DNA from: Thermogladius calderae 1633
GTDB taxonomy: Archaea; Thermoproteota; Thermoprotei_A; Sulfolobales; Desulfurococcaceae
Direction of reading: 5' to 3'
Assembly (NCBI RefSeq): GCF_000264495.1
Contig: NC_017954.1
Coordinates: 1,240,001 to 1,304,000, forward strand
DNA length: 64,000 bases
Notes under the pieces: model-generated
Seen by the model: the letters and a program-made list of their open reading frames with translations, nothing else
What the model was told of the DNA's origin: nothing
Databases searched by the model: none
Program-made: the position numbers and the translations under genes
Part shown: in pieces, positions 1 through 626 of the stretch
Position numbering within the stretch: the first letter of the stretch is position 1
Layout of the letters: each line of letters opens with the position of its first letter

Positions 1-566
1 TCCTTTGGCTCTGCCCGCCTTTCTCGTGCTTGCCGGGTATGTACTCCTCCATCTCCTCCAAGACCACGAGCCTGTTCCCCTTCAGTAGGCCGAGAGTAGC
101 GGCGTCCCGCTCGACGATTATCAGCCCTATGACGTTGTGTTCGTAGACCATCTCTTCGAGGAACTCCGTGTGGAAGTACTTGTCAGTCCTGTAGAAGAAG
201 AGCCTCACTTCCTCTGGCGGGATCAGCATCACGGATATGAAGTCGCCGGTCTCCACGTCCTCGCCCGCGAAGTAGACTAGACCGTTGTCTGGTATCTTGG
301 TGACCTTGCTGAACCTGTCGATCGCCGAGGCAAGCGCCCTCTGCACAGCGTTCTTAGTCCTCTTCAGCTTGATGTTGTCGGATATCGACAACTCCTGCCT
401 GAGCAGGTTGACAACGTCGCTAACAGGCCTGCCAGGTGGGACGTAGAGCGAGAGCAGTACTGTAGCAGGGGCCTTCCACTTCTTCAGCTCTTTTATGATC
501 TCCCTGAGCCTTTGTTTGTCGACTCTGAGGGCCTCTATCTTCTCCTCGCTGTAGCTAAAAGCCCAT
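1..566 (-). CDS. prf1: Peptide chain release factor aRF1, N-terminal part, apparent +1 frameshift at codon 3-4
   Basis: Archaeal class I release factor, which reads all three stop codons in the ribosomal A site and triggers peptide release. Seen: domain 1 with [11 protein letters not shown] and a NIKL version of the NIKS stop-reading loop, and a GGQ catalytic loop (GGQSQR) at the window edge. The gene runs off position 1. The release factor frame has no ATG or GTG near its expected N-terminus. The only ATG (564-566, minus strand) has AGGTG six bases upstream but reads ATG GGC TTT TAG; the release factor frame resumes +1 from TTT as AGC TAC AGC GAG. Either programmed +1 frameshifting at TTT-TAG-C or an extra base in the sequence. 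An in-frame TTG at 632-634 lies at or above the TATA box and is an unlikely start. Identity is secure; the start is not. Confidence 0.9.
554..566 (-). promoter_or_regulatory. Candidate programmed +1 frameshift site of aRF1
   Basis: On the minus strand the bases are ATG GGC TTT TAG C. With Phe-tRNA on TTT (560-558), the A site holds the stop TAG followed by C. A one-base forward slip puts the same tRNA on a second perfect TTT (559-557) and brings AGC into the A site, which is the frame of the conserved aRF1 protein. This copies the logic of the bacterial prfB site, CUU UGA C, where low release factor allows slippage. Removing one G or one T here would also restore the frame, so a sequence error is the alternative. 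Confidence 0.45.
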
Positions 567-572
567 ACCCAG

Positions 573-577
573 CACCT
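573..577 (-). promoter_or_regulatory. Shine-Dalgarno sequence for the aRF1 ATG
   Basis: AGGTG on the minus strand, complementary to the archaeal 16S 3' end, sits six bases before the ATG at 566. It supports that ATG as the true initiation codon even though the frame closes at TAG three codons later. Confidence 0.5.
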
Positions 578-614
578 GGACCACTGATTTCTTTGACTCC
601 TAATAAACGATACG

Positions 615-626
615 ATTTTAAATAGT
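615..626 (-). promoter_or_regulatory. TATA box for aRF1
   Basis: The minus strand reads CTATTTAAAATC here. Transcription would start about 25 bases on, near 595, giving a leader of about 30 bases to the ATG at 566. An upstream TTG at 634 would then not be in the transcript. Confidence 0.45.

Follow-up and report, generated by a model that had tools for sequence, protein, structure and literature searches.

The question raised by the 5' end of the aRF1 gene of Thermogladius calderae 1633 is how a release factor can be made from a gene whose fourth codon is a stop. The gene lies on the minus strand of the 64,000-nucleotide stretch of DNA analysed here (the window), where the initial annotation had noted ATG-GGC-TTT-TAG-C with the aRF1 frame resuming exactly +1; these coordinates were confirmed, and the interval 554–580 spans both the Shine-Dalgarno sequence and the site. 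From comparison of this locus with its relatives it is very probable that aRF1 is made via a programmed +1 ribosomal frameshift, through which a shortage of aRF1 would step up production of the protein.

The site in the Thermogladius window

Read on the minus strand, the sequence is AGGTG CTGGGT ATG GGC TTT TAG C TAC AGC GAG GAG AAG, in which ATG occupies 566–564, GGC 563–561, TTT 560–558 and TAG 557–555, with C at 554. The features are:

615–624, minus strand: TATA-like box TATTTAAAAT, read from the sequence
573–577, minus strand: AGGTG, initiation Shine-Dalgarno, six bases before the ATG
562–570, minus strand: GGGTATGGG, another purine-rich element, which overlaps the ATG (GAGGGATG(A/G)G in relatives), candidate internal Shine-Dalgarno
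558–566, minus strand: zero-frame leader ATG-GGC-TTT with slip codon TTT; the pattern RTG-(1–3 codons)-NTT is kept in 113 genomes
555–557, minus strand: in-frame stop TAG, then C at 554
1–556, minus strand: aRF1 frame after the +1 shift (AGC TAC AGC ...), running past the window to the gene end, with a TIGR03676 match and codon periodicity already visible in its first codons

Both initiation signals described earlier, the AGGTG at a six-base spacing (577–573) and a TATA box upstream of the start (624–615), were found. The aRF1 frame, which resumes at 556, together with its neighbour matches profile TIGR03676 (aRF1_eRF1) with 445 bits, and this is the single aRF1 gene in the 1,356,318-base genome. 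No stop interrupts the aRF1 frame in the window genome or in the relatives examined. The predicted product of the shift, M-G-F-S-Y-S-E-E-K-..., has 374 residues. Within the window, RTG-NNN-NTT-stop is followed by a +1 open frame of 80 codons or more at a single place. TTT accounts for 104 of the 640 Phe codons of the window, and the Phe codon of the shifted frame is always TTT.

Two ways of reaching aRF1 without a change of frame were rejected. Readthrough of the UAG would keep the ribosome in the zero frame, where aRF1 is not encoded. An in-frame upstream start, for which the initial annotation had named TTG 634 (GTG 727 is another), is available in the window genome and in one near-identical relative; in the other two of the four genus members compared the aRF1 frame has a stop upstream and offers no start codon ahead of the site. 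Since these congeners and many other genomes are closed by a stop and lack a start codon, an upstream TTG or GTG offers no general way out. In archaeal promoters the transcript start is expected about 25 bases downstream of the TATA box, a spacing that suggests an aRF1 transcript leader of about 27 bases; TTG 634 lies upstream of the TATA-like box and is therefore probably not transcribed.

Conservation of the site and evidence for a frame change

The 5' ends of aRF1 genes were surveyed in the families (coded f1–f11) of the order to which the window belongs (Sulfolobales/Desulfurococcales). A strict +1 site was present in 113 of 119 genomes from seven families (f1, f2, f3, f4, f5, f10 and f11). 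In the window's own family, f1, all 36 genomes carry it, as ATG or GTG, one codon and (T/C)TT-TAG-(C/T). It is likewise found in every member of f11 (30/30; ATG-AGT-CTT-TGA-C/T/G in 28 and CTT-TAG in two), a family which we take to be that of Sulfolobus, its member G114 being presumably Sulfolobus acidocaldarius DSM 639. The 15 genomes of f3 all possess the site, mostly as ATG-TCT/CCT-ATT-TAG, with two TAA, one TGA and a single GTT. Family f4 has it in 4/4 genomes, f5 in 4/5, f2 in 23/26 (mostly GTG-NNN-NNN-ATT-TAG) and f10 in 1/3. None of the 50 genomes in f6 (23), f7 (4), f8 (17) and f9 (6) of the same order contains a +1 site, and their genes have ordinary in-frame starts. In two further sampled families of the phylum and in the other genomes examined, aRF1 is likewise an ordinary open frame that starts in frame close to where the N-terminus is expected, the exception being f31, which is described below.

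All 113 strict sites have NTT as slip codon (ATT 45, CTT 38, TTT 28, GTT 2). The stop is TAG in 82, TGA in 29 and TAA in two, all three occurring within f3, so that the function of the stop is conserved while its identity varies. The base after it is C in 82 cases, T in 29, G in two and never A, as against A 19, G 16, C 11 and T 10 for the long ORFs of the window.

A few genomes depart from this pattern. L209 and L222 (G500 and G499, f2) read ATG-AAG-TAT-TAG-C: the early stop is kept and aRF1 continues at +1, but the slip codon is TAT rather than NTT, at which a shift is harder to explain. L261 (G035, f2) retains ATTTAGC, but its aRF1 frame is opened by an in-frame GTG a few codons ahead of this sequence, a probable natural loss of the frameshift. 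L316 and L112 (f5) retain ATT-TAG-C, and nearby their zero frame lacks ATG, GTG and TTG; the aligned codon is ATA, either a rare start codon or an assembly error. In a distant family, the aRF1 match of L291 (G548) was reported with one TAA inside the matched stretch. In a quickly built tree of 100 aRF1 proteins, based mostly on the conserved core and with long branches, the +1 state takes four parsimony changes, against 30 for shuffled labels; one gain and several losses is the simplest reading, and the counts do not separate gain from loss.

The need for a change of frame follows from two results, namely the lack of start codons in part of the genomes and the fact that substitutions follow the shifted frame. 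In 94 genomes the aRF1 frame was scanned from the upstream stop to eight codons before the conserved core, and in 32 of these it contained no ATG, GTG or TTG. Substitutions after the site in f1 fall at codon positions 1, 2 and 3 of the shifted frame in numbers of 970, 417 and 1778, compared with 3793, 3858 and 3773, without phase, in the 30 bases before the start; the counts come from pairs of related genomes and hence are not independent, and the contrast is large. The codon periodicity of the shifted frame begins directly after the stop. The residues right after the shift are Ser, Asp, Asn and, rarely, Glu, their codons always leaving a zero-frame stop. When the same 40 bases were aligned, as the initial annotation had recommended, the relatives proved to share the site and to lack an uninterrupted start. 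The +1 frameshift which it had proposed is backed by the 113 genomes, the invariant NTT-stop register, the variable stop, the absent alternative starts and the periodicity, and as judged from sequence is strongly supported.

Signals around the site, proposed mechanism and alternatives

The 3' end of the organism's own 16S rRNA is GGATCACCTCCT. The duplex profile for f1 shows a first minimum of -6.7 kcal/mol at the usual initiation place, and a second of -6.1 kcal/mol whose 3' end lies 7–8 bases before the stop. The second minimum reaches -7.8 kcal/mol in f2 and -7.7 in f4 and is weaker in f11 (-4.4), while ordinary ORFs of the window give -0.4 to -0.5 kcal/mol at this place (Mann-Whitney p 4e-13, kinship ignored). 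An internal Shine-Dalgarno feature is accordingly present in all four families, strong in f1, f2 and f4 and weaker in f11, and is a candidate stimulator of the shift. No conserved downstream RNA structure was found in the three families analysed, the mean z being -0.55 (f1), 0.0 (f11) and -0.15 (f2) versus -0.48 inside the gene. Low downstream z was seen in single genomes, e.g. L020 and L143. The spacing between a crude TATA match and the start has a median of 30 in f2, 36 in f11 and 39, with a wide spread, in f1. Leaderless initiation was rejected as a general rule, only f2 and perhaps f11 looking leaderless or nearly so.

These comparisons support the site and its conservation, the requirement for a +1 change and the match to an internal Shine-Dalgarno, and the following scheme may be proposed. 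Ribosomes would initiate at ATG 566 and, after two further codons, come to a pause, UUU occupying the P site and UAG-C the A site. From here aRF1 could recognise UAG, whereupon the tripeptide would be released, or the P-site tRNA could slip one base forward from its UUU onto the overlapping one, a step that base pairing between 16S rRNA and the Shine-Dalgarno-like element just upstream would assist, and translation would go on in the aRF1 frame. Scarcity of aRF1 would lengthen the pause and increase slippage, and aRF1 would in this way control its own synthesis. Across the order, a P-site slip from NUU to the overlapping UUU would compete with aRF1 at the stop. With AUU and GUU the mechanism is less clear, as the tRNA would mismatch the first position of UUU after the slip. 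The P-site slippage by which the frame would change on the ribosome, its efficiency and the feedback by aRF1 are what we infer beyond the sequence itself.

Autoregulation is suggested because the gene is that of aRF1 and its product reads the stop that it carries, which is the logic of prfB. Archaea use a single release factor for all three stops (PMC3521657), so that with the gene identified as aRF1 the stop at the site is one which its product reads, and the use of any stop at the site fits such a factor. The frameshifting might instead be constitutive, with a set ratio that only lowers expression and no feedback by aRF1. Frameshifting at a fixed ratio is common elsewhere and the feedback is reached by inference; nevertheless this seems unlikely, given that a stop which changes its identity yet persists at the start of the stop-reader's own gene, as in prfB, would otherwise be an odd coincidence.

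A control that dispenses with frameshifting would be a three-codon upstream reading frame, with aRF1-dependent termination at the early stop followed by re-initiation in the aRF1 frame. Short upstream frames can regulate in this manner, and some genomes offer an in-frame ATG or TTG some ten codons downstream, but in the 32 of 94 genomes mentioned above there is no ATG, GTG or TTG to re-initiate at. The register is, moreover, always exactly +1, whereas any register would do, coding periodicity sets in directly after the stop, and the nearly invariant NTT slip codon is one which re-initiation does not need. We consider this explanation improbable. Still less probable is a one-base change in the RNA, by transcriptional slippage or editing, in place of ribosomal slippage: runs of T4 or T5 do occur at some sites, but many others are CTTTGA or ATTTAG with three T only, and transcriptional slippage usually needs long runs; the Shine-Dalgarno-like element at a fixed distance also points to the ribosome. 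Finally, the initial annotation had cautioned that miscounting one base of a homopolymer would produce the same pattern, which holds for a single genome, but sequencing error or a pseudogene in Thermogladius can be dismissed, since the site recurs in more than 100 other genomes, complete and draft, down to CTT-TGA without a four-T run, and its sole aRF1 gene is intact apart from the site.

A second site and comparison with known systems

In f31 (L277–L288), likely Caldivirga/Vulcanisaeta, all 12 genomes carry GGAATAA at the aRF1 5' end, some 50 or 71 bases ahead of the RGYATTL core. This site closes a short frame, either (A/G)TG-GAY-GNN-YTG-GAA-TAA or ATG-GAA-TAA, and the aRF1 frame lies at -1 (GGA-ATA). 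In the aRF1 frame a usual start is missing before the core in L278 and L283, and before the site in L282; the periodicity after the site is 190, 116, 371. A -1 shift at the stop, in which tRNA-Glu could re-pair from GAA to GGA, is likely, and a +2 shift or initiation at a rare start codon is possible. In f22, a neighbour of f31, the starts are ordinary ATG or GTG. Family f31 is probably, though with some reserve, a second case of recoding in aRF1. Somewhat more tentatively, we favour the view that archaea evolved frameshift autoregulation of release factors separately from bacteria and on more than one occasion, as +1 in an ancestor within the Sulfolobales/Desulfurococcales order and as -1 (or +2) at GAA-TAA in f31, an omnipotent factor sensing itself via any stop.

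If the proposed control is true, the aRF1 N-terminus is likely annotated wrongly in many genomes, and recombinant aRF1 made from such annotations may miss N-terminal residues. Sulfolobus would then be a genetically tractable system in which to study how archaeal ribosomes shift frame, respond to internal Shine-Dalgarno sequences and terminate.

Within the same protein family, the class-I release factor (eRF1/aRF1-like) of Mimivirus and Megavirus also needs a frameshift, in combination with readthrough (PMC3521657). That system is viral and involves two recoding events, whereas the aRF1 frame described here has no second stop; its authors stated that such control was absent from the archaeal and eukaryotic homologs (PMC3521657). 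Frameshifting on archaeal ribosomes is represented by fucA1 of Saccharolobus solfataricus (PMC8211752), which differs in being -1 rather than +1, at an A-rich heptamer (A-AAA-AAT) in the overlap of two long frames, in having an uninterrupted gene in most relatives, and in lacking autoregulatory logic. A 2021 review of archaeal recoding lists, in its available text, one cellular -1 case along with viral and predicted ones and names no release factor (PMC8211752), and the accessible portion of a frame-transition scan of 1106 genomes mentions, among release factors, bacterial RF2 alone (PMC3711429). No earlier report of a recoded archaeal release factor, or of +1 programmed frameshifting in an archaeal cellular gene, was found in the literature searched, outside which many subscription papers lie; this agrees with the initial annotation, which knew of no such control for an archaeal release factor.

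The closest parallel is bacterial prfB (RF2), with its autoregulatory +1 frameshift at CUU-UGA-C and an internal Shine-Dalgarno (PMC12421855, PMC3711429) six bases before the stop (PMC12421855). The two share an early stop in the gene of a release factor that reads it, exact +1 resumption, CTT-TGA-C (in f11), a preference for C after the stop and, at the aRF1 site, an internal Shine-Dalgarno match about six bases before the stop. The aRF1 site has no conserved downstream structure that was detected, and prfB, to our knowledge, has not been described as needing one. By contrast, aRF1 is not homologous to RF2, matching only TIGR03676 and PDB aRF1/eRF1 chains. Its stop comes 3 to 5 codons after the start versus about 25 in prfB, and because the stop is so near the start, the internal Shine-Dalgarno overlaps the start codon. 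The slip codons include ATT, TTT and GTT besides CTT, and the commonest stop is TAG, which RF2 does not read. If the proposed autoregulation is true, the same control has evolved in two unrelated release-factor families, a clear convergence.
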